Assembly (NCBI GenBank): GCA_900320255.1
Contig: ONRS01000056.1
Coordinates: forward strand, 1-36,173
Direction: 5' to 3'
Source: an uncultured Prevotellaceae bacterium
Lineage (GTDB): Bacteria; Bacteroidota; Bacteroidia; Bacteroidales; Bacteroidaceae
Length of the DNA stretch: 36,173 bases
Shown piece after piece: positions 16,690 through 35,018 of the stretch. Numbering within the stretch: position 1 is the stretch's first letter; each line of letters begins with the position of its first letter. The notes beneath the pieces were generated by a model. That model made no database searches. It saw only the letters and a program-made list of their open reading frames with translations, and was not told the origin of the DNA. The position numbers were made by a program, and so were the translations under genes.

Positions 16690-18462
16690 TTATTTCTTCA
16701 TTTTGTTTGCATTTGCGCTTTGTGGCAAAACGGAGTATGCCTTTTGGTGTACGCCTTTGACGGCACGGCCGCTGGGGTCGTTCATGCCGAGGAAGGCGGC
16801 ATCCCACTGGAGGGCGACGGCAGTGGAGCAGGCTACGCTGGCCTCTGAGGGCACGCTGCGGGCGGCTGAGTCACTGGGGAAGTGTTCGGCAAAGATGCTG
16901 CGATAGTAGTATTCCTCCTTGTTCTTCGGCGGATTGACGGGGAAACGCTCGGCGGCATGGGCCATCTGTTCGTCGGTGACAGCCTGCGAGGTGACGGCTT
17001 TCAGCGTGTCAATCCACGAGTAGCCGACGCCGTCGGAGAACTGCTCCTTCTGCCGCCAGGCCACTTCGCCAGGCAGCAGGTCGGCAAAGGCTTCGCGTAC
17101 TATTTTTTTCTCGATGACGGTGCCGGGGCACATCTTCGCTTCGGGATTTGTACGCATGGCCACATCGAGAAACTCCTTGTCGAGGAAGGGCACGCGGCCT
17201 TCTACGCCCCATGCCGAGAGGCTCTTGTTGGCGCGCAGACAGTCGTAGAGGTGGAGTTTCCCTAACTTGCGCACCGTCTCTTCGTGGAAGTCACGGGCCG
17301 ACGGAGCCTTGTGGAAGTAGAGGTAGCCACCGAATATCTCGTCGGCACCTTCGCCCGAGAGTACCATCTTGATGCCCATCGACTTGATGACGCGTGCCAG
17401 CAGGTACATGGGCGTGGAGGCTCGGACGGTGGTGACATCGTAGGTTTCAATGTAGTAGATGACGTCGCGGATGGCATCGAGACCCTCCTGAATGGTGTAG
17501 TTGATTTCGTGGTGGACGGTACCGATGTGGTCGGCCACGAGTCGCGCTTTGGCTAAGTCGGGGGCACCCTTCAGTCCTACGGCGAAGGAGTGCAGCCGTG
17601 GCCAGTAGGCACGCGTACGGCTGTCGTCCTCAATGCGGTGCTCCGAGAACTTCTCGGCGAGGGCGGAGATGATGCTGCTGTCGAGTCCGCCGGAGAGCAG
17701 CACGCCGTAAGGCACGTCGGACATCAGCTGGCGGCGGACGGCGGTGGTGAGAGCGTCGCGGATGGTCCCGGCGCTGGCGGGGTTGTCTTTCACGGCGTCG
17801 AAGTCGAACCAGTCGCGGCGATAATATCTTTTTAATGAAGATTCTTCACTCCATAGGTAGTGGCCGGGCAGGAAGGGCTCGTAGTGTTCGCACTGTCCTT
17901 CGAGGGCTTTCAGCTCTGAGGCGACATAGACGGTGCCGTCGCTGTCGTAACCAATATAAAGAGGTATGACGCCGATGGGGTCGCGGGCTATGAGGAACTC
18001 ATTGCGCTCCTCGTCGTAGAGTACAAAGGCGAAGATGCCGCTGAGCTGCTCTAACAGGGAGCCCACCCCTAACCCCTCCCCAAGGGAGGGGGACTGCTGG
18101 CGCTTTTCCTCAAGGGAGGGGGACTGTTGGCGCCACTTGCGATAGAGTGCCAGGATAACCTCGCAGTCGCTGCCCGTCTGAAATTCGTACTGCCCTGCTT
18201 GTTGGCGACGGATTTCCTGATGGTTATAGATTTCGCCGTTGACGGCCAGCACCTGCTTTCGATCAGGGCTGTAGAGGGGCTGCCCACCCGACTCAGGGTC
18301 AACGATGCTCAGCCGTTCATGGGCCAGGATGGCAGAGCCACCGCAAAAGATTCCACTCCAGTCAGGTCCGCGGTGACGGATTTTCTGACTCATTCGTAAT
18401 GCTTTCTGACGCAGTTCCGGCGTCTGCTTCTTCGCGTTTAATATTGCTACTATTCCACACAT
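16690..18462 (-). CDS. asnB: Asparagine synthase (glutamine-hydrolysing), class B
   Basis: This 590-residue enzyme (E. coli AsnB is about 554) makes asparagine from aspartate, glutamine and ATP. The N-terminal glutaminase begins MCGIVAI with catalytic Cys2. The synthetase domain has the PP-loop S257-GGLDSS and the segment VLSGEGADEIFGGYLYFHKAP. Extra length comes partly from an in-frame insertion near residues 110-135 (QQSPSLEEKRQQSPSLGEGL, then GVGS), where the E. coli enzyme passes directly from ALYQ to the FAFALYD strand. The DNA there is a palindromic repeat element with a 30-base duplication. The gene starts 28 bases after the carA-carB fusion and closes the leftward nitrogen gene run. 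Confidence 0.96.
   Translation of the reverse strand: MCGIVAILNAKKQTPELRQKALRMSQKIRHRGPDWSGIFCGGSAILAHERLSIVDPESGGQPLYSPDRKQVLAVNGEIYNHQEIRRQQAGQYEFQTGSDCEVILALYRKWRQQSPSLEEKRQQSPSLGEGLGVGSLLEQLSGIFAFVLYDEERNEFLIARDPIGVIPLYIGYDSDGTVYVASELKALEGQCEHYEPFLPGHYLWSEESSLKRYYRRDWFDFDAVKDNPASAGTIRDALTTAVRRQLMSDVPYGVLLSGGLDSSIISALAEKFSEHRIEDDSRTRAYWPRLHSFAVGLKGAPDLAKARLVADHIGTVHHEINYTIQEGLDAIRDVIYYIETYDVTTVRASTPMYLLARVIKSMGIKMVLSGEGADEIFGGYLYFHKAPSARDFHEETVRKLGKLHLYDCLRANKSLSAWGVEGRVPFLDKEFLDVAMRTNPEAKMCPGTVIEKKIVREAFADLLPGEVAWRQKEQFSDGVGYSWIDTLKAVTSQAVTDEQMAHAAERFPVNPPKNKEEYYYRSIFAEHFPSDSAARSVPSEASVACSTAVALQWDAAFLGMNDPSGRAVKGVHQKAYSVLPQSANANKMKK
18061..18133. repeat. GC-rich palindromic element with internal duplication, in frame in asnB
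   Basis: CCCCTCCC (18073-18080) and GGGAGGGG (18084-18091) form a hairpin with a CAA loop. The 23-base stretch at 18081-18103 recurs at 18111-18133 with one mismatch, a period of 30 bases or ten codons. The first 30 bases (18061-18090) match 29659-29688 in gltB at 29 of 30 positions, but lie in the opposite orientation relative to the host gene. Confidence 0.85.
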
Positions 18463-18490
18463 AACTTTTATTTTCGATTTACGATTAAAC

Positions 18491-21433
18491 TTAGAGGTAA
18501 GAGAGGTAAAGATAATTGGTCTGGGCAGGGTATTCTGCTGCGAGGGTGTCTATCTGGTTGATCAAAGGCACTACATTCAACTCTTTTCGCCACTGGCGGA
18601 TGGTGAGGCCTGCCTGCTCCATATTCATGTAGTTTTCCAGTCCTACGGCACGGCCTATCTGGAAGTCGGAGAACCCATAGGCCTTAGCCTCACGCAGCAG
18701 TTGGACGAACGCTGGTGCTTCAAGATATTCCAACAGTTCCAGCGGTTCCATGAATGCTGTCATTTCTGCTAATTGGCTGAACTCCTGCAATTGGCGGTCA
18801 ATCTCGACAATGTGCTTCAGCTTTTGCAGGAACCAGCGGTCAATCATTGTCTGTTGGTGAATTTGTTCAACGGTATAGTCCATCTTCAGAGCCTTTGACA
18901 CCACAAAGATACGCATGTCGGTGGGCTCATGTAGTGACTGGGCTATGTCTTTGATGATGATTTCATGATTTTCCACGAATCCGTGCATGCCCTGACCTAT
19001 CATGCGAAGTCCTTTCTGCAGCCCTTCCTCAAAAGTACGGCCGACGGCCATCACCTCGCCAACACTCTTCATGGACGACCCGAGTTCGCGCTTCACTCCG
19101 TGAAACTTGGTCAGGTCCCAACGGGGAATCTTGACGACCACATAGTCGAGGGCAGGCTCGAAGAATGCTGAGGTGGTCTTGGTGACGCTGTTCTTCAGTT
19201 CGAAGAGTCCATAGCCCAAACCTAACTTGGCAGCAACAAAGGCCAGGGGATAGCCGGTTGCCTTACTGGCCAATGCCGACGAACGGCTGAGGCGGGCATT
19301 GACCTCGATGACGCGGTAGTCCTCGCTGTTGGGGTCGAGGGCATACTGCACGTTGCATTCGCCTACGATGCCTATGTGGCGGATAATCTTGATGGCCAGC
19401 GCACGCAGTTTGTGGTACTCACTATTTGTGAGCGTCTGCGATGGAGCCACCACTATAGACTCGCCGGTATGAATGCCCAGCGGGTCGAAGTTCTCCATGT
19501 TGCACACGGTGATGCAGTTATCGTAACGGTCGCGCACCACCTCGTATTCTATCTCCTTCCAGCCCCTGAGCGACTTTTCCACTAACACCTGTGGCGAAAA
19601 CGAGAAAGCTTCTTCGGCCTGTGCCAGCAGTTCGCTTTCATTGTCGCAGAAACCGCTGCCAAGACCTCCCAGGGCATAGGCTGCCCTCAAAATAACGGGG
19701 AACCCTAATTCGAGGGCTGCCTGTTGCACCTCTTCAACACTCTCGCAGGCATGGCTCTTGATGGTCTTCACGCCAATCTCGTCAAGCCGTTGGACGAAGA
19801 GGTCGCGGTCTTCCGTGTCGATGATGGCCTGCACAGGGGTGCCCAGCACCTGAACGCCATATTTCTCCAGCACCCCGCGCTTATAGAGCTCCACGCCACA
19901 GTTCAAGGCCGTTTGTCCGCCAAACGAGAGCAGGATGCCATCGGGACGCTCCTTTTCAATGACGCGCTCCACGAACTCGGGCGTCACCGGTTGGAAATAC
20001 ACGGTGTCAGCAACGTCCTTCGATGTCTGGACGGTTGCAATGCTCGGATTGATGAGCACGGAGTGAATGCCCTCTTCTTTCAAGGCCTTCAGCGCCTGTG
20101 CACCGCTATAGTCGAACTCGCCGGCCTGACCGATTTTTAATGCACCGCTGCCAAGAAGGAGGACCTTTGAAGTACCCACAAGACCAACCCCCGAGAGACC
20201 CACCCCCTGCCCCTCCCTGTGAGGGAGGGGAGTAGATAGTTCTGCTGCAGAGTCCTCGTCTTGAGGGTAACCACTCCCCATTCCCGAGCAGAGCTCGCCT
20301 ACCCGTTGCCTTTCCCTCACAGGGAGGGGCAGGGGGTGGGTCTGCTGGGTGAGGCTTCTGACAAATTCATCAAACAGCCACTCGGTATCTGTGGGACCAC
20401 TACAGGCTTCGGGATGAAACTGGGCCGAGAACCAGGGGTTGGTCTTATGGCGGATGCCTTCGTTCGAGCCGTCGTTCATGTTCACGAAGAGCGGTTCCCA
20501 GTCAGTGGGCAGCGTTGAATCGTCAACGGCATAGCCGTGGTTCTGTGAGGTGATGTAGCACCTGTTTGTACCCACCTGCTGCACAGGCTGGTTGTGTGAG
20601 CGGTGACCATATTTCAACTTGTAGGTCCTGGCACCGGCAGCACGGGCCAGCAGCTGGTTGCCAAGGCAGATGCCCATGCACGGCCGTACGTTGTTACCCA
20701 GGAGGAACGTGCGGATATGTTCAACGGTCTTGCCGCATTGTTCAGGGTCACCAGGACCATTAGCCAAGAACAGTCCGTCGAACTCTAACGTGTTGAAGTC
20801 ATAATCCCAAGGCACACGCACTACCTCGACACCTCGTTTTGTCAGGCAGCGAATGATGTTGGCCTTCACGCCGCAGTCAACAAGAACGACACGTTTCCCG
20901 CCCCCTTTGTTATAGGTAATCGTCTTTTTGCATGAAACCTTCTCCACCCAATTTAAGCTGCCGTAGTCCTCCTGTTCCGTATGCTGCGACACCGTCGCAG
21001 CTCCATCAATGACGACACGTCCCGTCATTACGCCATGCTCACGGAGCAACTGGGTCAGCCGTCGGGTGTCAATACCAGTAATGGCAGGTACCTTCTCGCG
21101 TTTCAGCCACGTTGCTAACGACTCCCGGGCGTTCCAGTGGGAATACTGCTCGCTATAGTCAGCCACAACGAGCGCCTTCACATGGATGCGCTCACTCTCC
21201 AGCAGCCGTGGAAGACCGTCGTCACCCAACCCTATATCCGGTACGCCGTAGTTGCCTATCAGCGGATAGGTACTCACCAGTATCTGCCCTGCATAGCTGG
21301 GGTCGGTCAGACTCTCCGGATAGCCGGTCATGGCCGTGTTGAACACTACCTCGCCCACCGTGTCTGCATCGTAACCAAACGACCGGCCGCAGAACTCCGT
21401 ACCGTCTTCGAGTATTAGTCTTGCTTCTCTCAT
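18491..21433 (-). CDS. Carbamoyl-phosphate synthase: CarA fused to the N-terminal half of CarB
   Basis: One 980-residue frame. Residues 1-363 are a complete CarA (small subunit): glutaminase nucleophile C256 in GICLGNQ, SQNHGYAV, and the catalytic dyad in QFHPEACSGP. Residues 364-418 are a linker encoded by a palindromic repeat element. Residues 419-980 match CarB from SKVLLLGSGALKIGQAGEFD through the first ATP-grasp domain and the oligomerisation domain, ending VVPLINQIDTLAAEYPAQTN then YLYLSYL-stop. That is exactly where the second synthetase half should begin. The carbamate-phosphorylating half and the MGS-like allosteric domain (E. coli CarB about 554-1073) are absent; asnB follows after 28 bases. 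The CarB part reads, from memory, closer to eukaryotic CPSII/CAD than to E. coli. The start overlaps the purF-like stop (ATGA). Confidence 0.93.
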   Translation of the reverse strand: MREARLILEDGTEFCGRSFGYDADTVGEVVFNTAMTGYPESLTDPSYAGQILVSTYPLIGNYGVPDIGLGDDGLPRLLESERIHVKALVVADYSEQYSHWNARESLATWLKREKVPAITGIDTRRLTQLLREHGVMTGRVVIDGAATVSQHTEQEDYGSLNWVEKVSCKKTITYNKGGGKRVVLVDCGVKANIIRCLTKRGVEVVRVPWDYDFNTLEFDGLFLANGPGDPEQCGKTVEHIRTFLLGNNVRPCMGICLGNQLLARAAGARTYKLKYGHRSHNQPVQQVGTNRCYITSQNHGYAVDDSTLPTDWEPLFVNMNDGSNEGIRHKTNPWFSAQFHPEACSGPTDTEWLFDEFVRSLTQQTHPLPLPVRERQRVGELCSGMGSGYPQDEDSAAELSTPLPHREGQGVGLSGVGLVGTSKVLLLGSGALKIGQAGEFDYSGAQALKALKEEGIHSVLINPSIATVQTSKDVADTVYFQPVTPEFVERVIEKERPDGILLSFGGQTALNCGVELYKRGVLEKYGVQVLGTPVQAIIDTEDRDLFVQRLDEIGVKTIKSHACESVEEVQQAALELGFPVILRAAYALGGLGSGFCDNESELLAQAEEAFSFSPQVLVEKSLRGWKEIEYEVVRDRYDNCITVCNMENFDPLGIHTGESIVVAPSQTLTNSEYHKLRALAIKIIRHIGIVGECNVQYALDPNSEDYRVIEVNARLSRSSALASKATGYPLAFVAAKLGLGYGLFELKNSVTKTTSAFFEPALDYVVVKIPRWDLTKFHGVKRELGSSMKSVGEVMAVGRTFEEGLQKGLRMIGQGMHGFVENHEIIIKDIAQSLHEPTDMRIFVVSKALKMDYTVEQIHQQTMIDRWFLQKLKHIVEIDRQLQEFSQLAEMTAFMEPLELLEYLEAPAFVQLLREAKAYGFSDFQIGRAVGLENYMNMEQAGLTIRQWRKELNVVPLINQIDTLAAEYPAQTNYLYLSYL
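20196..20343. repeat. 148-bp palindromic element forming the carA-carB linker
   Basis: The ends form a perfect 31-bp inverted repeat (20196-20226 against 20313-20343). Inside, 49 bases (20275-20323) are identical, in inverted orientation, to 34395-34443 in dapF. On the coding strand it reads [20 protein letters not shown] and then MGSGYPQDEDS, while dapF has [20 protein letters not shown]. The element keeps the frame open from CarA into CarB. Confidence 0.92.
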
Positions 21434-23169
21434 AATTGATATCTTAACTCTTTTTCTACATAGTTGATAAAGGCCTCGTTACAGAGGCGTGTGCCACCTG
21501 GCGTGGGGTAATGCCCGGTAAAGTACCAGTCACCCGGATGGTCGGGACAGGCTGCATGCAAGCCGTCAATGCTTTGGAACACCAGCTCTATGGGAGCCTC
21601 CATGCCTTCCGGGCGAAGCATGTCAACAATTTTACGGTTGATTTCCTCAACGGTGAAGGGCTCGTAGATGGCACGTACATGATTGGTTACCTTGGACTCC
21701 GTCTTGCATTTCCGATAAGTGTCTGCCAACAGTTGCTGCAAGCCTCGCTCCATGATGAGTGCAACGGCAGCGCGAAAGGCACAAAGCTCTTCCAGCCGCG
21801 ACATGTCAATGCCGTAGTAGTCGGGGTAGCGAATCTGCGGTGAACTCGACACCATGACAATCTTCCGGGGATGCAGGCGGTCGAGAATCTTGAAGATGCT
21901 TTCCCTGAGTGTGGTGCCCCGGACGATGCTGTCGTCGATGATGACGAGGTTGTCCTCGTAGGGTCTGAGCGACCCGTAGCTGATGTCATAGACGTGGGCG
22001 GCCAGGTCGTTGCGTTCGCTGTTGTCGGCAATGAAGGTGCGCAACTTGATGTCCTTCCACACCACCTTCTCCGTCCGCACATGAAAGCCCTGCTGGCGGA
22101 AACCGTCTGTCATGCCGTAATAGGCTACCTCGGCGGTGTTGGGGATGTAGGAGAATACCGTGTTGGTCGCGTCGCCGTCAATGGCCTTTAGGATGATTGG
22201 CGTCAGTTGTTCGCCCAACCGCTTGCGCTCCTGATAGATGTCGCGGTCTGAGCCCCGGCTGAAGTAGATGCGTTCGAAACTGCAGGCACTGAACTGCCGG
22301 GCAGGCATGATTTGCTCCAGATGGCTCTTACCACTCCTGCGCACGATGAGTGCCTGACCAGGCTTCAGTTCGTGTATGTCGTCTGTCTTAAGATTGAAGG
22401 TTGTCTGCAGCACTGGCCGTTCGCTGGCCACAGCCACCATCTCGTCGTCATGATAGTAGAACGCAGGGCGGATGCCCCAGGGGTCACGTACGGTGAACAT
22501 CTCGCCGGAGCCCGTGAGTCCGCACATCACGTAGCCGCCGTCGTAGTGCTGCATCGTGGTCTTTAGCACGTTACCCATCTCTACGTGGTCGTCAATATAG
22601 CTCGTAATGTCAAGCCCTTCAAGTCCCTTGGCCTTAGCCGCTACGAAAAGGCGTTCTACCTCGCGGTCCAGTCGGTGCCCCATCAACTCGAGTGTGATAT
22701 AGGAATCGCCATTGACACGGGGCGACTGGCCTTGGGCGGTCAAGAGCTCAAAGACCTCGTTGATGTTGGTCATGTTGAAGTTACCGCACAGGCAGAGGTT
22801 CTTGGCCCGCCAGTTGTTGCGGCGCAGGAAGGGGTGAACGAAGGTCAGTCCGCTTTTGCCCGTCGTGGAGTAGCGCAAGTGTCCCATCAGCAGTTCGCCT
22901 GCCATCTCCTCCGTCACACGACAGAAAACCTCCGTGATGGCATCCTTCCCTTCTGCCTTTTCGCGGAACATATATTCCGTTCCGGGCTTCTTGTTCAGGC
23001 TTACCGACGCGATACCGGCACCCTCCTGTCCGCGGTTGTGCTGCTTCTCCATCATCAAGTAGAGTTTGTTAAAGCCGTATGCCCACGAGCCATACTTCTG
23101 CTCGTAGTACGACAGCGGTTTCAACAGGCGGATCATTGCCACGCCACACTCATGTTTCAGTTGCTCCAT
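21430..23169 (-). CDS. purF: Amidophosphoribosyltransferase-like protein (PurF family, divergent, long)
   Basis: This 579-residue protein has two PurF domains. The class II glutaminase has its nucleophile at Cys8 (after a propeptide MEQLKHE), with CGVAMI, NRGQEGAGIAS and MGHLRYSTTG. The phosphoribosyltransferase domain has the PRPP loop VIIDDSIVRGTT and the following SSSPQIRYPDYYGID. PurF makes phosphoribosylamine, the first step of purine synthesis. It is longer than the usual 470-505 residues, with an extra segment right after CGV and an extended C-terminus. It could therefore be a specialised paralogue with a second, canonical purF elsewhere. Its stop overlaps the carA start, so the pair is translationally coupled. 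Confidence 0.88.
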   Translation of the reverse strand: MEQLKHECGVAMIRLLKPLSYYEQKYGSWAYGFNKLYLMMEKQHNRGQEGAGIASVSLNKKPGTEYMFREKAEGKDAITEVFCRVTEEMAGELLMGHLRYSTTGKSGLTFVHPFLRRNNWRAKNLCLCGNFNMTNINEVFELLTAQGQSPRVNGDSYITLELMGHRLDREVERLFVAAKAKGLEGLDITSYIDDHVEMGNVLKTTMQHYDGGYVMCGLTGSGEMFTVRDPWGIRPAFYYHDDEMVAVASERPVLQTTFNLKTDDIHELKPGQALIVRRSGKSHLEQIMPARQFSACSFERIYFSRGSDRDIYQERKRLGEQLTPIILKAIDGDATNTVFSYIPNTAEVAYYGMTDGFRQQGFHVRTEKVVWKDIKLRTFIADNSERNDLAAHVYDISYGSLRPYEDNLVIIDDSIVRGTTLRESIFKILDRLHPRKIVMVSSSPQIRYPDYYGIDMSRLEELCAFRAAVALIMERGLQQLLADTYRKCKTESKVTNHVRAIYEPFTVEEINRKIVDMLRPEGMEAPIELVFQSIDGLHAACPDHPGDWYFTGHYPTPGGTRLCNEAFINYVEKELRYQL

Positions 23170-23186
23170 ATAGTAATAACCTCTTT

Positions 23187-23256
23187 ACTACGAATTACAC
23201 GAATTTTACAAATTAGTGCTCAATAATCCGTTTAATTCGTCAAATTCGTAGTCGTT
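23187..23256. repeat. Intercistronic palindromic nonamer repeat, copy 1 (pyrG-purF)
   Basis: Left arm: nonamers CTACGAATT, ACACGAATT, TTACAAATT. Right arm: the complement, TTAATTCGT, CAAATTCGT, AGTCGTT. The right arm covers the pyrG stop codon and encodes its last residues (TTTNLTN). The same structure recurs at 25650 and 26998. Confidence 0.82.
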
Positions 23257-24848
23257 ACACATTCTTTGATAAAGTCCATAAACAGCGGGTGCGGGTGCAG
23301 CACCGTCGATGAGTATTCCGGGTGGAACTGGGTGCCGATGTACCAGCGTTTGTTGGGTATCTCGACAATCTCCACCAGATTGGCGGCTGGGTTAATGCCC
23401 ACACACTGCATGCCTGCGGCCTCGTATTCCTCCTTATATAAATTATTAAACTCGTAGCGGTGACGGTGCCTCTCGCTTATAAGGGTCTTCTCCCCATAAG
23501 CCTCATAGACGCGGCTGTCTTTCTGAAGTTCGCACTCGTAGGCGCCCAGTCGCATGGTACCGCCCATGTTAGTAACCGTTTTCTGCTCCTCCATGAGGTC
23601 TATGACGGGATGAGTCGTGCTGTCAGACATCTCACGGCTGTTAGCATCCTGATAGCCTAAGACATTCCTCGCGAACTCAATGACCATCATCTGCATACCG
23701 AGGCAGATGCCGAAGGTGGGAATATCGTGTGTGCGTCCGTATTCAGCAGCGAGAATCTTGCCCTCGGTGCCGCGCTGGCCAAAACCCGGACAGATGATGA
23801 TGCCTGCCATGTCGCCTAACAGTGTGGCGACGTTTTCTGCTGTCACGTCCTCGCTGTTGACGAAATGGATTCTGGTCTTTACGTCGTTATAGATACCTGC
23901 AAGGTTCAGGCTCTCGCGGATGCTCTTGTATGCATCCTGCAGGGCGTATTTACCCACCAGTCCGATGTGTACCTCACGCGTTGCCTTGCGCTGTTTGTCA
24001 AGAAAAGCGTACCAGGAGGAAAAAGCCCCCTCTACGTCCCTGGCCCCCGATGCCGTTTTCTTTAGGATGGCTGCATCGAGTCCTTGCTGCTGCATGCTTA
24101 CGGGAACTTCATAGATGCTGGGCATGTCCTCACTCTGTACGACACAATCCAGATCGACATTACAGAACGATGCCACTTTTTGGCGTACACCGTCATCGAG
24201 GTGACGCTCGGTACGCAGCACGAGAATGTCAGGCTGTATGCCCATTGACTGCAATTCCTTCACCGAGTGTTGGGTGGGCTTCGTCTTCAGCTCGTCAGCG
24301 GCTTTCAGATACGGCACGTAGGTCAGGTGTACGCAGACGGCATTGCGCCCCAACTGCCAGCGCAGCTGTCGGATGGCCTCCATAAACGGTGCACTCTCAA
24401 TGTCACCGATAGTGCCGCCTACCTCGGTAATGACAAAGTCAAGTTCTTCGTCAGAACGCTCTCGCAGCATCCGTCGCTTAATCTCGTCCGTAATGTGGGG
24501 CACCACCTGAATGGTCTTGCCCAGATAGTCACCGCGTCGCTCGCGCTCAATGACGGTTTGGTAGATGCGGCCTGTGGTGATGCTGTTGTTGCGGGTGGTG
24601 CGGATGCCGGTAAACCGTTCGTAGTGCCCCAGGTCGAGGTCGGTTTCGAAACCGTCCTCCGTCACGTAGCACTCGCCGTGTTCGTAAGGGTTCAGCGTCC
24701 CCGGATCGATATTGATGTAGGGGTCGAACTTCTGAATGGTCACCTTGTAGCCGCGTGCCTGCAGCAGTTTACCGATGCTGGCGGAGATGATGCCCTTTCC
24801 TAACGAGGAAACCACGCCGCCTGTGACGAAAATGTACTTTGTTTGCAT
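23232..24848 (-). CDS. pyrG: CTP synthase
   Basis: This 538-residue protein, near the usual 535-550, converts UTP to CTP using ATP and glutamine. The synthetase domain starts KYIFVTGGVVSSLGKGI with the nucleotide-binding loop and FDPYINIDPGTLNPYEHGE. The glutaminase domain has CPGFGQRG, the nucleophile loop FGICLGMQ and the C-terminal IGTQFHPEYSS. It is probably cotranscribed with the upstream barrel gene (81-base gap, containing a hairpin) and the downstream purF-like gene (62-base gap). The last seven residues come from the intercistronic repeat, which suggests the repeat once replaced or extended the native end. Confidence 0.97.
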   Translation of the reverse strand: MQTKYIFVTGGVVSSLGKGIISASIGKLLQARGYKVTIQKFDPYINIDPGTLNPYEHGECYVTEDGFETDLDLGHYERFTGIRTTRNNSITTGRIYQTVIERERRGDYLGKTIQVVPHITDEIKRRMLRERSDEELDFVITEVGGTIGDIESAPFMEAIRQLRWQLGRNAVCVHLTYVPYLKAADELKTKPTQHSVKELQSMGIQPDILVLRTERHLDDGVRQKVASFCNVDLDCVVQSEDMPSIYEVPVSMQQQGLDAAILKKTASGARDVEGAFSSWYAFLDKQRKATREVHIGLVGKYALQDAYKSIRESLNLAGIYNDVKTRIHFVNSEDVTAENVATLLGDMAGIIICPGFGQRGTEGKILAAEYGRTHDIPTFGICLGMQMMVIEFARNVLGYQDANSREMSDSTTHPVIDLMEEQKTVTNMGGTMRLGAYECELQKDSRVYEAYGEKTLISERHRHRYEFNNLYKEEYEAAGMQCVGINPAANLVEIVEIPNKRWYIGTQFHPEYSSTVLHPHPLFMDFIKECVTTTNLTN

Positions 24849-24881
24849 ATATGATAGTTTATTTGACTCTTACATCACAAA

Positions 24882-24913
24882 CCCTCTCTCCCGCCTACAT
24901 GCGGAAGAGAGGG
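24882..24913 (-). promoter_or_regulatory. Hairpin between the barrel gene and pyrG
   Basis: CCCTCTCT (24882-24889) pairs with AGAGAGGG (24906-24913), with an inner CCGC/GCGG extending the stem. On the transcribed minus strand it follows the barrel stop by 16 bases and ends 33 bases before pyrG. No T run follows, so a mRNA-processing or stability element, or an attenuator, fits better than a strong terminator. It resembles the GC-rich elements found inside genes here. Confidence 0.5.
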
Positions 24914-24929
24914 GGGTACCTGGCGAAGA

Positions 24930-25634: not shown

Positions 25635-25649
25635 ACGCTTTTTTTTAAT

Positions 25650-25719
25650 ACTACGAATTTCACGAATTAATTTTATTTCGCGTAGCAATTCGTTTAATTC
25701 GTATAATTCGTAGTCGTTT
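25650..25719. repeat. Intercistronic palindromic nonamer repeat, copy 2 (amt-barrel gene)
   Basis: Arms CTACGAATT, TCACGAATT on the left and CAATTCGTT, TAATTCGTA, TAATTCGTA, GTCGTT on the right. It starts 5 bases after the amt stop on the transcribed strand and has the same orientation as copies 1 and 3. Confidence 0.82.
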
Positions 25720-25724
25720 ATAAA

Positions 25725-26978
25725 TTAGTTGTAGCAACTCTCTCCATGTTCGTAGATGTCCAGTCCTTCCTCCTCGATGCGACCATCGACGCGCAGACCG
25801 TGCAGACGCTTGATGCCGTAGAACAGGACGAAGCCGCACAGGGCTGCCCAGAGGTCGATGCAAAGGATGCCGAAGCACTCAGCACCGAAGAATCCCCAGC
25901 CGTGACCGTAGAAGGCACCGCTTGACGTAGATAGCAGTCCTGTCATCAGTGTGCCGAGGATACCACAGACACCGTGCACTGACGAAGCACCCACGGGGTC
26001 GTCGATATGCAGGCGATGGTCGATGAACTCGATGGCATAGACGAGTACCACGCCACAAACAAGTCCGATGACAACGGCACCGAGTGGCGACACCAGGTCA
26101 CAGCCGGCAGTGATGCCCACCAATCCGGCCAGCACACCGTTGAGCGTCAAAGAGAGTGAGGGCTTGCCGTACTTCATCCATGTGACGAACATGGTGGCCG
26201 TGCCGCCTGCCGCGGCAGCAAGGTTGGTGGTCAGGAAGACGTGACTGATGGCGATGCGGTTCACCTCACCCGAGGCTGCAAGCTGCGAACCGGGGTTGAA
26301 GCCGAACCAACCCATCCAAAGAATAAAGACGCCTAAGGAGGCCAGCGTCAGGTTGTGGCCGGGGATGGCACGGCTCTTGCCGTCACTGCTGTACTTGCCG
26401 ATGCGTGGACCGAGTGCCATTGCGCCAATCAGTGCCAGCACACCGCCCACTGAGTGTACGATGGCTGAACCCGCAAAGTCGTGGAACACGTCGCCGAAGG
26501 TCTGCATCATAAATCCGTCGGCAGCATCGTTGCAGAGCCAGCCGCCGCCCCATGTCCAATGGCCCTCAATGGGGTAGATGAACAGTGAGATGCAGGCAGA
26601 GTAGATAAGGTACATCGAGAACTTGGTGCGTTCGGCCATGGCACCGCTGACGATGGTGGCCGAGGTGGCACAGAAAACGGTCTCGAAAATCAAGAAGCCC
26701 TCCACGGGCAGGTCGCCTTTGTAGAATGAGAGGTCGCCCCAGTTGGGCATGCCGATGAATCCCGCGCCCTCGCTGCCGAACATAAAACCGAAGCCGAGGA
26801 AGAAGAACAACAGCGAGCCAAACATGAAATCGACAAAGTTCTTCATCAGGATGTTTGCCGTGTTCTTGCCACGCGTGAAACCTGCCTCACACAGCGCAAA
26901 TCCTGGCTGCATCCAGAAAACCAGCATGGCTGCCAATAGCATCCATACGGTATCGAGTGATAATCCTATTTCGTTCAT
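25725..26978 (-). CDS. amt: Ammonium transporter Amt
   Basis: This 417-residue protein has the eleven-span Amt/Mep/Rh plan. Recognisable blocks are FWMQPGFALCEAGFTRGKNT at the N-terminus, FETVFCATSATIVSGAMAER in the middle, DFAGSAIVHSVGGV with a conserved pore region, and DDPVGASSVHGVCGILGTL near the end. Amt channels take up ammonium through the inner membrane and are plugged by PII when nitrogen is plentiful. The gene lies 104 bases downstream of glnK, and glnK-amt pairing is the classical arrangement. The spacer holds palindromic repeat copy 3. Confidence 0.97.
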   Translation of the reverse strand: MNEIGLSLDTVWMLLAAMLVFWMQPGFALCEAGFTRGKNTANILMKNFVDFMFGSLLFFFLGFGFMFGSEGAGFIGMPNWGDLSFYKGDLPVEGFLIFETVFCATSATIVSGAMAERTKFSMYLIYSACISLFIYPIEGHWTWGGGWLCNDAADGFMMQTFGDVFHDFAGSAIVHSVGGVLALIGAMALGPRIGKYSSDGKSRAIPGHNLTLASLGVFILWMGWFGFNPGSQLAASGEVNRIAISHVFLTTNLAAAAGGTATMFVTWMKYGKPSLSLTLNGVLAGLVGITAGCDLVSPLGAVVIGLVCGVVLVYAIEFIDHRLHIDDPVGASSVHGVCGILGTLMTGLLSTSSGAFYGHGWGFFGAECFGILCIDLWAALCGFVLFYGIKRLHGLRVDGRIEEEGLDIYEHGESCYN

Positions 26979-26997
26979 AACATTTCAATTTCATTAA

Positions 26998-27074
26998 ACT
27001 ACGAATTTTACAAATTATACTAATTTCCTTTTTAGCGCAGCAATTCGTTAAATTCGTATAATTCGTAGTCGTTA
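26998..27074. repeat. Intercistronic palindromic nonamer repeat, copy 3 (glnK-amt)
   Basis: ACTACGAATTTTACAAATTA on the left, then AGCAATTCGTT, AAATTCGTA, TAATTCGTA, GTCGTT on the right. The right arm shares GCAATTCGTT and its continuation with copy 2. It starts 8 bases after the glnK stop on the transcribed strand. Confidence 0.82.
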
Positions 27075-27082
27075 AACCTTTT

Positions 27083-27430
27083 TTATTTCTTGTCTCTAAG
27101 TACCGTGTCGCCATTCTCACCTGTCCTGATGGACCACGTATCAATCATGTCGCTGACGAAGATGCGCCCGTCGCCTATCTCACCCGTGTGTGCGACCTTC
27201 AGAATGACTTTCACGGTGGGCTCCACAAACTGATCGCGGCAAACAATGGTTAATGCCACGCGCTCAATGACATCAGTCGAGTACTGGACGCCGCGGTATA
27301 TGCGTTCCTGCCGACTTTGGCCGATGCCATGCACGTTGTGGTATTCGAACCAGTCGATGTCCGATGACAGTAGTGCTTCCTTAACCTCTTCGAACTTGGT
27401 CTTACGGATAATTGCTTCAATCCTTTTCAT
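27083..27430 (-). CDS. glnK: PII nitrogen-regulatory protein (GlnK/GlnB family)
   Basis: This 115-residue protein has the full PII length. It begins MKRIEAIIRKTKFEEVKEAL. The T-loop reads GIGQSRQERIYRGVQY with tyrosines 45 and 50, the latter matching the site uridylylated (Tyr51) in proteobacterial PII, in a loop one residue shorter. The C-terminal block KVAHTGEIGDGRIFV is diagnostic. PII trimers sense 2-oxoglutarate and ATP/ADP and gate AmtB. Its place as first gene of the leftward run, next to amt, makes GlnK the best name. Its promoter region is shared back to back with that of gltB. Confidence 0.96.
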   Translation of the reverse strand: MKRIEAIIRKTKFEEVKEALLSSDIDWFEYHNVHGIGQSRQERIYRGVQYSTDVIERVALTIVCRDQFVEPTVKVILKVAHTGEIGDGRIFVSDMIDTWSIRTGENGDTVLRDKK

Positions 27431-27489
27431 ACCTTTTTACCTATTTAATTAATACTACATATTTGTATCATCTTGCAAGATTCTGGGTG

Positions 27490-27528
27490 CAAAGTTAAGG
27501 TGATTTATGAGAATGATTTGCATAAATC
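27490..27528 (-). promoter_or_regulatory. glnK promoter with overlapping inverted-repeat operator
   Basis: On the minus strand TAACTTTG (27490-27497) is a -7 box 60 bases upstream of the glnK ATG; no good TTTG -33 box is seen. At the -33 position lies a perfect 8-bp inverted repeat, GATTTATG (27502-27509) and CATAAATC (27521-27528) with an 11-base gap. This suggests a dimeric regulator that activates or represses here. Confidence 0.55.
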
Positions 27529-27687
27529 TTCAACTTTGTACCAACAAAAATCGGCGAAATGACAAAGTGTAAACCAAAGGGGAAGTCTATGACTCGTTTT
27601 GTTTTCATTTTGTTGCGGAAAATATTATTTTTAGAGCAAAATGTTAATTAAGTGCGATTTTAAAGTAAAATAATGTCATAATAATAA

Positions 27688-27717
27688 TTGTTTTAGTAAC
27701 TTTTTGTATTACCTTTG
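27688..27717 (+). promoter_or_regulatory. gltB promoter
   Basis: TTG (27688-27690), 19 bases, TACCTTTG (27710-27717) matches the Bacteroidetes consensus. Transcription should begin near 27724, 36 bases before the ATG at 27760. The region 27531-27687 is AT-rich with no ORF and no further strong motif. Confidence 0.7.
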
Positions 27718-27759
27718 CACCCGTAACACGACGGTGTGATAAGATTAAACGAGGATAAT

Positions 27760-30700
27760 ATGAAAAGAAGAAAACTAAATGGACTATATCAGCCACAATA
27801 TGAGCACGACGCATGTGGTGTTGGTATGGTGGTGAACATACGCGGAGAAAAGAGCCACGAACTGGTGGACCAGGCACTACGCGTGCTGGAGAACATGGAG
27901 CATCGAGGTGCTGAGACGCGAGATAAAACGGGTGATGGTGCTGGTATTATGCTGCAGATACCGCATGAGTTCATTCTGTTGCAGGGAATTCCTGTGCCCG
28001 AGAAGGGAAAGTACGGCACGGGACTGGTGTTCCTGCCGAAAGATGAAAAGGAACAACGGGAAATTCTCAGTGTGATGATTGAAGAAATAGAGCGCGAGGG
28101 TTTGCAGCTGATGCATATGCGCACTGTACCGACCTGCCCCGAAGTGCTGGGTGAGGCAGCCCGAAGAGTGGAGCCTGCTATTAAGCAGATATTCGTGACC
28201 CAGAAGACCCAGCAGACCCACCCTCAGCCCCTCCCTGTGACGAGAAGCCTCACCCCCAACCCCATTCCCGCTAACGCGCCTACCCGTAGCCTTTCTCCGA
28301 CTGGAGAGGGGAGTGGTTACATTCAAGACGATGACTTAGCGTTAAAGCGCAGGCTATATATAATAAGGAAAAGAATTGAGAAAAGAATAGCAGAAATGGT
28401 ATCTACTCCCCTCTCCAGTCGGAGAGGGGTTGGGGGTGGGTCTTCTGACTTTTACATCTGTTCGCTATCCAACACAAACATTATATATAAGGGAATGCTG
28501 ACCAGCGGACAACTGCGTCGGTATTTCCTTGACCTCTCGAATCCCTACCTGACAAGCGGACTGGCGCTGGTGCATTCACGATTCAGCACAAACACATTCC
28601 CTACGTGGTCACTGGCCCAGCCTTTCCGCTTGCTGGCTCACAACGGCGAGATAAATACCATTCGTGGTAACCGTGGATGGATGAAGGCGCGCGAGAGTGT
28701 GCTCTCAAGCGAGGCGTTGGGAGATATCAAGGAGATTTCGCCCATTGTGCAGGAGGGCATGAGCGATTCTGCCTCTTTGGACAACGTGTTTGAGTTTCTC
28801 ACTATGAGTGGCCTCAGTCTTCCTCAGGCAATGGCGATACTCGTGCCAGAATCGTTTAATGAAAAGAACCCGATATCAGAAGACCTAAAGGCGTTCTATG
28901 AGTACCACTCCATACTGATGGAGCCATGGGACGGTCCGGCTGCCCTGTTGTTCTCTGACGGACGCTATGCGGGCGGTATGCTCGACAGGAACGGTCTGCG
29001 CCCTTCCCGTTATACGATTACGAAGCAGGGTGTGATGGTGGTGGCATCGGAAGTGGGCGTCATGGACTTCGAACCGGGTGACGTGGTGAGTAAGGGACGC
29101 TTGCAGCCTGGAAAGATTCTGCTTGTTGACACGCAGGAGGGCAAAATCTACTACGACGGCGAAATCAAGGAACAGCTGGCTAAGGCACATCCCTACCGTG
29201 AGTGGCTCAGTGAGAACCGTGTACAGTTGGAAAAACTGAAGAGTGGCCGTCATGTTGACAATGCAGTGAGTGACTTGGAGCGGAAACTGGTGCTGTTCGG
29301 CTATGGCCAAGAGGACATAGACAAGACGATTATCCCCATGGCTACTATGGGGCAGGAGCCGGTGGCAGCTATGGGTAACGACACACCACTGGCTGTGGTG
29401 AGTGATCGTCCGCAACTGCTGTTCAACTATTTCCGCCAGCAATTCGCACAAGTGACGAATCCAGCTATAGACCCCATCAGGGAAGAACTGGTGATGTCGC
29501 TGACGGAGTACATCGGTGCCGTGGAAACGAATATTTTAACACCCGATGCGTCTAACTGCAAGATGGTACGCCTGCCGCAGCCGGTATTGACCAACACACA
29601 ACTCGATATATTATGTAATATAAAGTATAAGGGGTTTAAGACGATTAAATTGACATTGGCCCACCCCCAACCCCTCCCCAAGGGAGGGAAGCCGAATTGG
29701 CTGAAGGCGGGTGAAAACTTGCGGAATGCTTTGGACAAACTTTGTAAGGATGCCGAGAAAGCTGTTGACGATGGCTACAACTACATCATCCTGACCGATA
29801 AAACTAATGTAGCCCCCTCGGGGGCCGAAGGGGGGGCTCCGTGGGCTTTCATCCCCTCGCTGCTTGCCGTCTCTGCCGTGCATCATCATCTGATTAGCGT
29901 AGGCAAGCGTGTGCAGACAGCCTTGATTGTGGAGAGCGGCGAGATTCGCGAGACGATGCACGCGGCACTGCTGCTGGGCTACGGGGCCTCGGCGCTGTGT
30001 CCGTACATGGTCTTTGCCATCCTTGATGACTTGGTGAAACGTGGAAAGATTCAGGAGGATTATGCCACAGCGGAGGCGCACTACATCAAGGCGGTGGATA
30101 AGGGCTTGAAGAAGATCATGTCGAAGATGGGCATCTCGACCATTCGCTCGTATCGTGGTGCCAAGATCTTTGAGAGCATCGGACTCAGCGAGGACTTGCT
30201 GCGCCGTTACTTTGGTACGGAGGTAAGTACCATTGGCGGCATCGGACTGAAGGAGATAGCAAGGGACCAGATACGATTTAGTGAAGAGTTAAGAGTTAAG
30301 AGTGAAGAATTAAGAGTGAAGAATCACGGGCAGTTCTCGTGGCGCAAGGACGGTATTAAGCATGCGTGGAACCCGGAGACGATTGCGAAGCTGCAATTGG
30401 CTTGTCGCACGGGCGACTACGAGAAATTCAAGGAGTGGTCAAAACTGGTGGACGAAAAAGAATCACCCATCTTCCTCCGCGACTTCCTCACCTTTAAGAA
30501 AGTATCTACTCCCCTCTCCAGTTGGAGAGGGGTTGGGGGTGAGGCTTCTCGTCACAGGGAGGGGCAAGGGGGAGAGTCTGTGGAGCCTGTGGAAAGTATA
30601 GTGAAGCACTTTGTGACGGGAGCCATGTCGTTTGGTGCACTCAGTATTGAGGCCCACGAGGCACTGGCACTGGCCATGAACAGGCTCGGCACTCGTTCGA

Positions 30701-32517: not shown

Positions 32518-32519
32518 GT

Positions 32520-32655
32520 AAATTTACGATTTGACGATTTACTATTTGCGATTTATTTTCAATTTGAGACTATTGAACTATTTCGTGGATAGGACTCAGA
32601 GAATCGTTAAATCAATCAAATCGTAAATAAATAGTAAATCGTAAATAGTAAAAGA
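32520..32655. repeat. Inverted-repeat spacer between gltB and gltD
   Basis: A perfect 14-bp inverted repeat, ACGATTTACTATTT (32534-32547) and AAATAGTAAATCGT (32629-32642), is flanked on both sides by looser repeats of the words ACGATTT and AAATCGTAAAT. The transcript would fold into one long hairpin between the two cistrons. No promoter-like TAnnTTTG is seen. Confidence 0.75.
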
Positions 32656-32668
32656 GTAAATAACAAAA

Positions 32669-34075
32669 ATGGGAAATCCGAAAGCATTTTTAGAGATACA
32701 CCGCCAAGAAGCTGGCTACCGCCCCATTCACGACCGCATTCACGACTTCGGCGAGGTGGAGCAGACGCTCAACACGCGCGAGCGCAAGTTGCAGGCGAGC
32801 CGTTGTATGGACTGTGGCGTGCCCTTCTGCCATTGGGCCTGCCCGTTGGGCAACAAGGCTCCCGAATGGAACGATGCGCTGTATAAGGGTGACTGGGAGT
32901 TGGCTTACAAGTTGCTTAACAGCACGAACCCCTTCCCAGAGTTCACGGGTCGCATCTGTCCGGCACTGTGCGAGAAAGCCTGCGTACTCAACCGTTTCAA
33001 CCACGAGCCGACGACCAACCGCGAGGATGAGTGCGCCATCATCGAGGCTGCTTTCCGCGAGGGTTATATCCAACAGCGGATACCTGCCAGGAATGGTAAG
33101 CGTGTTGCCGTCATCGGTAGTGGTCCTGCCGGACTGGCTGCTGCCGAAACCCTCAACCAGATGGGCTATACGGTTACCGTCTTCGAGAAGAACGAGGCCG
33201 CTGGCGGCCTACTGCGCTATGGCATCCCCAACTTCAAGCTCAACAAGGCCATAATCGACCGCCGCATTGCGCTGATGGAGGCCGAGGGGATAGAGTTCCG
33301 TTATAATGAAGAGTTAAGAATGAAGAGTGAAGAATTTGCTACCGCACATGGAAGCGAAAAAGATTCTTCACTCTTCACTCTTCACTCTTCATTTGATGCC
33401 TGCATCATCGCCACTGGTACGCCAACAGCCCGTGACCTGAAAGTGCCGGGACGCGAACTGAAGGGAGTGCATTTCGCCCTCGAACTGCTCTCTCAGCAGA
33501 ACCGGGTGCTGGCGGGTATGGAGTTTCCTATCGACGAGTGCATCACCGCCAAAGGCAAGGACGTGCTGGTCATCGGTGGCGGTGATACTGGAAGTGACTG
33601 TATAGGCACCGCTCATCGTCAGGGTTGCAAGAGCGTGACGCAGATAGAGATTATGCCCAAGCCAGTGGAGGGGCCTGACGACCCACAGAACCCCTGGCCC
33701 AACTTCCCCCGCACGCTCAAGACTACCTCGAGCCACGAGGAAGGCTGCACCCGTCGCTGGAACATCAATACGCTCGAGTTTCTGGGTGAGGACGGCAGAC
33801 TGACGGGTGTGAAGGTGCAGGAAATAGACTGGAAACCCAACCCCGAGGGCGGTCGTCCCATCATGGTGGAGAAGGGCGAGCCCTTCATCATTAAGGCAGA
33901 GCTCTGCCTGTTGGCCATGGGATTCCTGAAGCCAGAGCACCCGGAATATCCCGAGAACGTCTTTGTGTGCGGCGATGCCCAGAACGGTGCCTCGCTCGTA
34001 GTGCGCGCCATGGCCAGCGGAATAGAAACAGCCCGCCGCGTCCATGAGTACATCAATAGTAAAAACGTCAAATAG
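32669..34075 (+). CDS. gltD: Glutamate synthase small (beta) subunit, NAD(P)H oxidoreductase
   Basis: This 468-residue protein passes electrons from NAD(P)H to GltB. N-terminal cysteines for Fe-S clusters are C46, C49, C54 and C58 (CMDCGVPFCHWACPLGN), with further cysteines in GRICPALCEKACVLN. The FAD site is VIGSGPAGLAAAE and the NAD(P)H site is VIGGGDTGSDCIG. The C-terminal VFVCGDAQNGASLVVRAMAS is typical. A stretch of about 29 residues (NEELRMKSEEFATAHGSEKD and SSLFTLHSSF) replaces the short turn that normally precedes the DACIIATG strand; it is encoded by an inverted pair of heptamer arrays. The stop codon lies inside a 16-bp tandem repeat that runs into the dapF leader. Confidence 0.97.
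   Translation: MGNPKAFLEIHRQEAGYRPIHDRIHDFGEVEQTLNTRERKLQASRCMDCGVPFCHWACPLGNKAPEWNDALYKGDWELAYKLLNSTNPFPEFTGRICPALCEKACVLNRFNHEPTTNREDECAIIEAAFREGYIQQRIPARNGKRVAVIGSGPAGLAAAETLNQMGYTVTVFEKNEAAGGLLRYGIPNFKLNKAIIDRRIALMEAEGIEFRYNEELRMKSEEFATAHGSEKDSSLFTLHSSFDACIIATGTPTARDLKVPGRELKGVHFALELLSQQNRVLAGMEFPIDECITAKGKDVLVIGGGDTGSDCIGTAHRQGCKSVTQIEIMPKPVEGPDDPQNPWPNFPRTLKTTSSHEEGCTRRWNINTLEFLGEDGRLTGVKVQEIDWKPNPEGGRPIMVEKGEPFIIKAELCLLAMGFLKPEHPEYPENVFVCGDAQNGASLVVRAMASGIETARRVHEYINSKNVK
33305..33390. repeat. Inverted pair of heptamer arrays in frame in gltD
   Basis: Left arm, four heptamers (33305-33332): AATGAAG, AGTTAAG, AATGAAG, AGTGAAG. Right arm, four heptamers (33363-33390): ATTCTTC, ACTCTTC, ACTCTTC, ACTCTTC, the complement of the left. 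The 30-base loop between carries ordinary-looking sequence. A long hairpin is thus built entirely from 7-base words. Confidence 0.88.
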
Positions 34076-34102
34076 TAAAATCGTCAAATAGTAAAATCGT
34101 CA
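34055..34102. repeat. 16-bp tandem repeat across the gltD stop codon
   Basis: Three 16-base units: AATAGTAAAAACGTCA, then AATAGTAAAATCGTCA twice, ending 4 bases before the dapF ATG. The first unit encodes the last GltD residues (NSKNV) and the stop TAG (34073-34075) is in the second. Confidence 0.85.
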
Positions 34103-34106
34103 GATA

Positions 34107-35018
34107 ATGTTAGTTCGATTCACCAAAATGCACGGTTGCGGTAATGACTATATCTATGTCAATGCCATGCAGTACCCTATTGCCGACCCCTCTGCTGCTG
34201 CGATTGAATGGAGCGACCGCCACAAAGGTATCGGCTCCGACGGCCTGGTGCTCATCGACCGCAGTCCCGTCCCCGAGGCCGACTACTCCATGCGCATCTT
34301 CAATGCCGACGGCTCCGAGGCCATGATGTGCGGCAATGCTGCGCGCTGTATCGGTAAGTATCTTTATGAGAAGAAGACCCACCCCTGGCACCTTCCTGTG
34401 AGGGAAAGGCAACGGGTAGGCGAGCTCTGCTCGGGAATGGGGAATGGATACCAAGAGACGGAGATTCGCCTGCTCACGCTCTCTGGTATCAAGACCCTCT
34501 GTCTCCACATTATTAATAATATAGTAGAGTCCGTTACCGTCGATATGGGTGAGCCCGTCTTCGAAGACGAGTCGTTGTTCATCCCCGGACTTGCGCAAGG
34601 GGGCGGGTCTTTCGTCTCGATGGGTAATCCCCATTACGTCATCTTCACCGATGATGTTGACCAGGTTGGTGCGACGGGGCCCAAACTCGAACGTCACCCC
34701 GCCTTCCCCCAGCGCTGCAACATTGAGTTTGCAGCACCCTTGGCTACCTCGGGGGCCAAGGGGGCTCTCCGCGTCCGTGTATGGGAACGCGGCAGCGGCA
34801 TCACTCTGGCTTGCGGCACTGGTGCCTGTGCTACTGCCGTTGCTGCCTGTCTGACAGGCCGTGCCAGTCGTACGAGTGACATTGTGATGGATGGCGGCAC
34901 CCTCCACATTGAGTGGCGCGAAAGCGACAATCACGTCTATATGACCGGTCCTGCTGAGTTCGTCTTCGATGGTGAAATAGAAGCCCCGCTTAATCCCCCC
35001 TTAGGGGAAAATCAATAA
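34107..35018 (+). CDS. dapF: Diaminopimelate epimerase
   Basis: This 303-residue enzyme (usual length about 275) interconverts LL- and meso-diaminopimelate for lysine and peptidoglycan. The start [18 protein letters not shown] is family-typical. The two catalytic cysteines are C75 (MMCGNAARC) and C236 (LACGTGACA), and [11 protein letters not shown] is conserved. Extra length comes from an in-frame element after YLYEKK ([20 protein letters not shown] and then MGNGYQ), a second foreign patch ([12 protein letters not shown]), and a C-terminal tail LNPPLGENQ read from another element. The gene starts 31 bases after gltD and is followed 67 bases later by dapL. Confidence 0.96.
34376..34450. repeat. 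GC-rich element in frame in dapF
   Basis: Bases 34395-34443 are identical over 49 positions to the minus strand of 20275-20323 in the carA-carB linker, and the flanks are similar. Only one arm of the carAB palindrome is present here. The peptide is [15 protein letters not shown] in both genes. Confidence 0.9.

Follow-up and report, generated by a model that had tools for sequence, protein, structure and literature searches.

In-frame palindromic inserts in conserved genes of an uncultured Prevotellaceae bacterium: two families of probable REP-like mobile elements, one nested in the other

How conserved metabolic genes come to carry GC-rich palindromes without losing their reading frames is the question raised by a 36,173-nucleotide stretch of DNA (the window) from an uncultured Prevotellaceae bacterium, in which such inserts lie within asnB, carAB, gltB and dapF. 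The window corresponds to contig 136 in an assembly of 2.75 Mb with a completeness of 83.5%. The original prediction, made from the letters of the window, was that these inserts form a family that breaks no frame and is analogous in principle to the Rickettsia palindromic elements (RPEs). The repeat family proved real, but it comprises two families, here called A and B, with B nested in A; all four insert-bearing open reading frames (ORFs), which Pfam recognizes as AsnB, CarA with the first half of CarB, GltB and DapF, run uninterrupted through the inserts, as had been proposed. We consider it quite probable that A and B are non-autonomous palindromic mobile elements of Prevotella-type genomes, similar to the repetitive extragenic palindromes (REPs) and REP doublets forming hairpins (REPINs) of other bacteria.

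Family A consists of ~115-bp palindromes in which two inverted 40-nt hairpin units (AGACYCWCCCCCARCCCCTCCCT-loop-AGGGAGGGGAGTRG) are joined by a semi-conserved spacer; single units are also common. Its dyad symmetry extends over the ~115 bp, with AGACCC ends, and its subtypes preserve the stem (CCCCTCTCC/GGAGAGGGG, CCCCTCCC/GGGAGGGG, and CCCCTCTCT/AGAGAGGGG). A 171-bp query against the source genome returned 38 rows, some of which are the two arms or strands of one palindrome, and a covariance model of A returned 51 rows at E ≤ 0.1 (49 without two reverse-strand duplicates). In all, 60 units that group into 47 clusters, some of them intergenic, were found in this genome; the genome query and the models of A and B show many further copies, whose absence would have refuted the original prediction. 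Inverted A neighbors within 200 bp of each other form 11 pairs in the source genome, as compared with 0.17 expected by chance, and the AGACCC tails point outward in all 11; at the stricter cut used for relatives (E ≤ 1e-7), the same orientation was found in 8/8 pairs, seven of which have spacers of 34-47 bp, giving 19/19 tail-out pairs overall. Aligned with the carAB copy, these seven dimers (113-128 bp) reveal a single palindrome whose spacer is semi-conserved. Under the strict cut, A was detected in the source genome, in 6 of the 35 relatives within the genus, and in none of 24 genomes of other families.

Within the window, the relationships among copies that had been claimed were largely borne out: carAB and dapF are identical over 49 of 49 bases in inverted orientation (20275 vs. 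34395), two gltB sites are identical over 37 of 37, also inverted (28227 vs. 30529), and asnB matches gltB at 29 of 30 positions (97% over 30 nt; 18061 vs. 29659). The gltB sites at 28399 and 30502, for which 39 of 40 bases had been claimed, agree at 94% over 48 nt. The two peptides once quoted as products of different frames are mostly different parts of one composite, the 13-residue peptide corresponding to the nested B module and VSTPLSS..GVGG to A's second arm. Elsewhere, however, copies are indeed read in different frames (see below).

Family B is a hairpin module of 33 bp (or 30 bp) that in most copies follows a GA dinucleotide and has the form AAGGCWACGGGTAGG-C(arm)NNN(arm)-GGGAAT. Its arms covary, with GAGC/GCTC in 72, GACG/CGTC in 26, GACC/GGTC in 17 and GAAC/GTTC in 10 of 138 copies, and the three-base loop takes 29 forms. 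As the scan patterns fix the flanks, flank conservation was taken instead from model-found copies, which were themselves found by score. Lengths were counted from 94 model matches, with L319 excluded as the same copy as L148; of the remaining 93, four had no recognizable start and seven no recognizable end, and the 82 copies with both ends measured 33 bp in 55 cases, 30 bp in 19 and another length in 8, so that 75 are multiples of three. Among B copies that lie outside any long frame in longer loci and are clearly non-genic, 12 of 15 are also 33 bp, and coding selection alone therefore does not make this length. The preceding dinucleotide is GA in 75 of 89 model-found copies and CA in 7. In carAB, dapF and gltB, B interrupts the A stem at one and the same position (GGGA^GGGG or GGAGA^GGGG), and two further copies in the source genome (C25 and C98) occupy a similar place; elsewhere B stands alone. 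In addition, several B copies in G034 (L134-L137, L143 and L144) are central in a longer imperfect repeat, GCACTCTGA^GAGAGTGC and similar, which represents a further palindromic family.

Comparison with relatives that lack the element shows that B was inserted exactly. Of 41 unfilled rows, 14, representing 10 distinct sites, place the junction at gap 0 with neither duplication nor loss of bases, five (L143, L144, L150, and L247 twice) are off by 1-5 bp, and 22 fall in repeat arrays or other copies. While the junction position was extrapolated from flank alignments that end within ~30 bp, several of the gap-0 sites and a few others are covered by a gapless alignment that spans the junction. B was detected in the source genome, in 16 of 35 genus relatives (up to 35 copies) and, as a weak match (E = 0.004), in 1 of 24 others. 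A pattern search of named genomes matched at least 120 stretches, and the 80 titles are mostly Prevotella or Prevotellaceae records, many from the rumen; other labels of metagenome-assembled genomes among the matches listed are Bacteroidaceae, Bacteroides, Bacteroidales, Paludibacteraceae and Muribaculaceae. Since a length of 33 bp and the GA are built into this pattern, its matches were excluded from the statements on length and target; they were included in the genic and frame counts. B was also seen in 14 stretches of viral contigs from IMG/VR (L305-L318), some in open frames; GA precedes the element in 15/15 viral-scan matches (12 distinct), the scan pattern not having required it. None of the three ORFs tested from these contigs had a PHROG match, and the copies may reflect either phage carriage or host contamination.

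Inserts of the window and of other genes in the source genome could likewise be compared with orthologues that lack them. The dapF insert is missing from 8/8 orthologues, and 12 bp stand in place of 81 in 3/3 relatives placed at the DNA level; in the PDB, DapF has relatives as judged by sequence. In asnB, 5 of 7 relatives compared at the DNA level have 7 bp (vs. 73), and the other two carry different inserts of 58 and 238 bp. At the third gltB insert, 5 of 10 relatives have 4-5 bp and two (L115 and L116) have A-like units, while at the fourth, 9 of 12 have 27 bp, one has 21 bp, and both G034 copies have A units; at the second, one G034 copy carries a different A subtype. For ispD, mutS2 and miaA, 14 matching genomes per gene were compared: the ispD insert was absent in 14/14 fetched orthologues, with 12 residues corresponding to 3 native ones, and the first mutS2 site, where length varies among relatives, is not counted among the clean empty sites. 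Empty sites among orthologues are thus found for dapF, ispD and miaA, and in most orthologues for gltB and asnB. The first GltB alignment used 10 of 21 rows; its 11 minus-strand rows were ignored, and several of these were covered later at the DNA level. Some sites are occupied also in related species, often by other subtypes, namely the carAB linker (A-like sequence in G028, G034 and G032, none in G009, and an unreadable G025 row made up of two separate pieces), gltB 29657 and 30502, and mfd; these sites may have been occupied long ago, or tolerant positions may have been used repeatedly. The peptides, whose presence at the same sites in orthologous proteins across the phylum would have refuted the original prediction, are mostly absent from orthologues, with some sites shared by close relatives.

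The relation of B to coding sequence was measured on 127 copies with 450-bp flanks from which the element had been removed, a copy being taken as genic where the frame reached at least 150 codons. By this definition 89 of 127 copies (70%) are genic, as compared with 8376 of 9597 random GA sites (87%; P = 3e-7), and B therefore shows only mild avoidance of genes. The frame remains open in 81 of the 89 genic copies and is closed in 8, while random GA sites in the same loci combined with synthetic consensus elements predict 39% closed (P = 2e-10), which puts a measurement, for B, behind the earlier suggestion that selection acts on an open frame. The open copies use five strand-phase combinations (44, 16, 13, 6 and 2), and insertion most often splits a GAN codon behind its second base, as the GA target would lead one to expect. 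Eight A dimers of relatives all lie within frames of at least 342 codons, and two of the eight (L425 and L426) are read in frames other than the usual THPQPLP..STPLPHREG.

Copies in many genes, nesting, empty sites, exact insertion of B, covarying hairpins, use of several frames and depletion of closed frames are direct observations, and they fit REP/REPIN-like elements. Most B copies sit directly behind GA, and many of them inside a Glu or Asp codon. In this reading, genic copies of both families would survive only where the frame stays open and the peptide falls at a tolerant position of the protein. Both A and B may move as single-stranded hairpins, served in trans by an HUH-Y1 enzyme akin to REP-associated tyrosine transposases (RAYTs) or IS200, a step to which we assign somewhat less than an even chance. 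B appears unusually well tolerated, owing to a length in multiples of three and to about four open frames out of six. More tentatively still, B could be regarded as a 33-bp translation-neutral micro-transposon, moved in trans by an unnamed HUH-Y1 enzyme, which colonizes Prevotella genes almost as readily as intergenic DNA; this suggestion draws on a length that is nearly always divisible by three, also outside genes, on the stop-free frames, and on a GA target that favors Glu and Asp codons.

Spread without dedicated transposition, through template switching during replication or gene conversion between hairpins at microhomologies, is the strongest of the alternatives and still an unlikely one. 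It would explain why members of an A pair resemble each other more than shuffled partners do (31 of 5000), why native sequence is bracketed by inserts in gltB and perhaps in miaA, and why the relatives' native sequence at gltB 30502 shares CTACTCC, as judged by eye, with the A border; yet the ends, length and target of B are nearly constant across unrelated genes, and complete A dimers have a spacer in common. Somewhat less probable are miniature inverted-repeat transposable elements (MITEs), moved by a cut-and-paste insertion sequence (IS) transposase of the DDE type and marked by terminal inverted repeats and a target duplication. While the dyad symmetry of A and its AGACCC ends are what such elements would show, solitary A arms are common, terminal inverted repeats are lacking in B, and the search for target duplications, which the original prediction had proposed, revealed none at the 10 gap-0 B sites (with five other rows off by 1-5 bp). 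That the peptides are ancient lineage-specific protein features is highly improbable, for despite the sites occupied in several related species, the same DNA turns up both outside genes and in unrelated genes, where it is read in different frames, and the empty sites in most compared orthologues already contradict it.

A mobilizing enzyme was sought in the source genome and in relatives. PF01797, which represents the known RAYT type, had no match in the source genome (the control was positive in 5/14 genomes) and was uncorrelated with A or B in relatives; a resident RAYT of known type was thus rejected. An NCBIfam RAYT model led instead to a divergent HUH-Y1 family of ~360 aa, in which MPDHxH and the Tyr of the Y1 motif are invariant in 17/17 aligned members; among five members compared with Pfam, three matched PF01797 at E 0.02-0.08 and two matched nothing, and two members scored 35 and 41 bits against NF047646 (cut-off 80). 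The source genome encodes one member (C151:8701-9774, 361 aa). In an alignment search of 60 genomes, in which pieces of one ORF were merged by hand, the family was found in 18 of 36 genomes of the genus (the source genome included) and in 1 of 24 others. It is present in 7/7 A-bearing and 11/29 A-free genomes (one-sided P = 0.004), and the genomes with most family proteins, G034 and G022 (6 each), have 20 and 8 A copies, respectively. Its association with B is weak (11/17 against 7/19; P = 0.09). Judged from these sequence comparisons, the divergent family is a lead, a candidate enzyme for A and not a demonstration.

A number of observations weigh against the reading of A and B as mobile elements moved by such an enzyme. 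The correlation with A ignores phylogeny, the G027 member counted in the 7/7 is a fragment with a stop, and G014 (~5 proteins) as well as G007, G009 and G033 (4 each) carry the family while A is missing at the strict cut. For neither Y1 family does the presence of B show a clear association (P = 0.09 and 0.24): G031, with 17 B copies, is without the divergent family, and G035, with 6, has no match to any of three Y1 queries. No transposase adjoining the elements was found; a B-linked transposase was rejected, as no neighboring gene recurs in more than 5/120 loci; 15 loci around PF01797 genes, which were searched for B only, contained no copy; and 19 loci of the divergent family contained no match to A and one clear B, ~1.3 kb from the ORF. 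The GA before B is not absolute, with 14/89 copies deviating. Insertions of A are not always clean, since those at gltB 30502, in ispD and in miaA resemble replacements of 9-27 bp, and only one A site, gltB 28399, has exact borders. Finally, the gltB stretch between inserts 1 and 2 starts spacer-like and then becomes native coding sequence; inserts 1 and 2 may be either two insertions or one rearranged dimer.

Table 1. Positions of A and B inserts in the window.
Feature	Position	Strand	Description
asnB insert	18061..18133	+	One A unit (18062-18091, CCAAGG loop), then its partial direct repeat (18107-18133)
carAB linker insert	20196..20343	-	Complete A palindrome (115 bp) with nested 33-bp B; 148 bp in total
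Family B, 33 bp	20280..20312	-	Nested at GGGA^GGGG of the carAB A stem
gltB insert 1	28214..28320	+	A arm and start of spacer, interrupted by 30-bp B; variable loop in the GltB alignment
Family B, 30-bp variant	28264..28293	-	In the A stem of gltB insert 1
gltB insert 2	28399..28446	-	Single A arm; exact 48-bp net gain vs. G028
gltB insert 3	29657..29690	+	Single A unit, CCAAGG subtype
gltB insert 4	30502..30579	-	A arm and fragment of a second unit; 78 bp where relatives mostly have 27 bp
dapF insert	34373..34453	+	A arm carrying a nested B, plus part of the spacer
Family B, 33 bp	34406..34438	+	Nested in the dapF A arm

The inserts listed in Table 1 lie in a glutamine/ammonium gene cluster (16690-35018) with asnB, carAB, a glutamine-amidotransferase-like ORF, CTP synthase, an ammonium transporter, gltB, gltD and dapF, several neighbors of which are retained in relatives. 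The carAB ORF (18491-21433, minus strand) fuses CarA to the first half of CarB only, with one ATP-binding domain, an oligomerization domain and no second half; as it matches relatives (L115, L117 and L129) over nearly equal length, this is not a local truncation. Outside the window, 20 further ORFs of the source genome carry or border copies, and 19 have a Pfam match, i.e., are conserved genes; their names rest on Pfam, and the one without a match had been taken for a transporter. These hosts include IspD, KDO transferase, LeuA- and LeuC-like enzymes, Mfd, MutS2, MiaA, FolD, guanylate kinase, Lgt, peptidyl-tRNA hydrolase, helicases and others; in several of the 20, the copy is at the extreme start or end, with the true start codon uncertain.

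Other repeats were also noted. A second in-frame type, with heptamers AGAGTGA/AGAGTTA, occurs at gltB 30283-30321 and gltD 33305-33394; the gltD repeat contains two inverted copies (31 nt, 94%) expected to fold into a long hairpin, and similar runs flank B in relatives. A possible third insert type, with the peptide APSGAEGGAP, is at gltB 29812-29841, and APSGAVGG-like peptides occur in two places of the source genome (C160 and C79) and in the DapF of one relative. Tandem heptamers GCTCCTC/CTCTCCA (9881-9971) are translated in frame within ORF 9174-10754, and an AATTCGT-rich repeat occurs three times (23218-23267, 25680-25729 and 27035-27084) at gene edges or in intergenic DNA next to CTP synthase, a 252-aa ORF and the ammonium transporter. 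An Rfam scan of window positions 18000-35000 (E ≤ 1) gave only sub-threshold miRNA models on the gltD repeat and no match to the inserts, and assignment of the inserts to an RNA family was thus rejected.

If A and B are indeed mobile, gut and rumen bacteria would offer another widespread example of selfish palindromes changing proteins, one for which named genomes supply exact empty sites. As copies occur in many Prevotella-type species, three questions can be addressed: the enzyme behind the movement of a 33-bp element, the frequency with which conserved proteins grow by ~10-40 residues at once, and whether a new peptide is merely tolerated or used. For annotation, the Pro- and Gly-rich peptides encoded by the inserts are not domains.

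There are published examples of palindromes in frame within genes, both from Rickettsia and among the REPs of several phyla (PMC3733652, PMC10969869). According to the available text of Di Nocera et al. (2013, PMC3733652), intragenic GTAG and CGTC REPs occur in O. terrae, Rickettsia conorii and others and often encode 20-30 aa, loops are suggested as the tolerant sites, and Bacteroidetes are mentioned once, for CGTC repeats. A and B resemble these REPs as small palindromes inside genes, with dimers in opposite orientation; however, the REPs of that study are mostly intergenic, as are classical REPs, which are mostly extragenic, whereas B is genic in 89/127 copies. In size, B (33/30 bp) and the A unit (~40 nt) fall within the 20-40 bp of the multicopy palindromes of the GTAG-REP superfamily, yet the terminal tag outside the stem is lacking: in B, GTAG stands beside the stem, ~11 nt inside the conserved end, and A has a partly conserved AGTRG on the opposite side of the hairpin. 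TnpA-REP enzymes are described in sections of PMC8266576 as recognizing GTAG, with altered GTAG changing the cleavage dinucleotide in one of them, and the stem-adjacent GTAG of B is therefore suggestive. REPINs and bacterial interspersed mosaic elements (BIMEs; see PMC3116915 and PMC8266576) are inverted hairpin pairs with a short spacer, as are the tail-out pairs of A, and those linked to RAYTs combine GTAG beside the stem, which B shares, with an HUH-Y1 enzyme as mobilizer (PMC8266576). A REPtron, i.e., a cognate RAYT flanked by its repeat, was not found in 15 loci (B only) and 19 loci (A and B). Excerpts of PMC6006769 define RAYT subclass 2.6, Bacteroidetes Y1 genes flanked by atypical hairpins with copies elsewhere, from which the ~360-aa candidate family differs in an extra C-terminal part and in sub-cut-off NF047646 scores. 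Unlike MITEs, B has no target site duplication; this absence, insertion 3' of a fixed short target, and hairpins are features of the IS200/IS605 type. B fits these features, and its membership of the type, which would entail single-stranded movement, is putative. The analogy with RPEs (Ogata 2000/2002), which are ~150 bp long in the portions of PMC10969869 and PMC3733652 available, is supported in the main: both are palindromes in frame in unrelated genes, and A (~115 bp) and B (33 bp), in a different host phylum, are set apart from RPEs by these descriptions, independent of sequence comparison. No description of such elements in Prevotella or Bacteroidales was recognized in the open-licence literature searched. 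While the mode, intragenic palindromes, is thus known, that literature describes neither families A and B nor the exact insertion of 33/30 bp behind GA nor the frame-neutral length. What looks new in B is a length that is a multiple of three, the targeting of GA and a patchy distribution within the genus.

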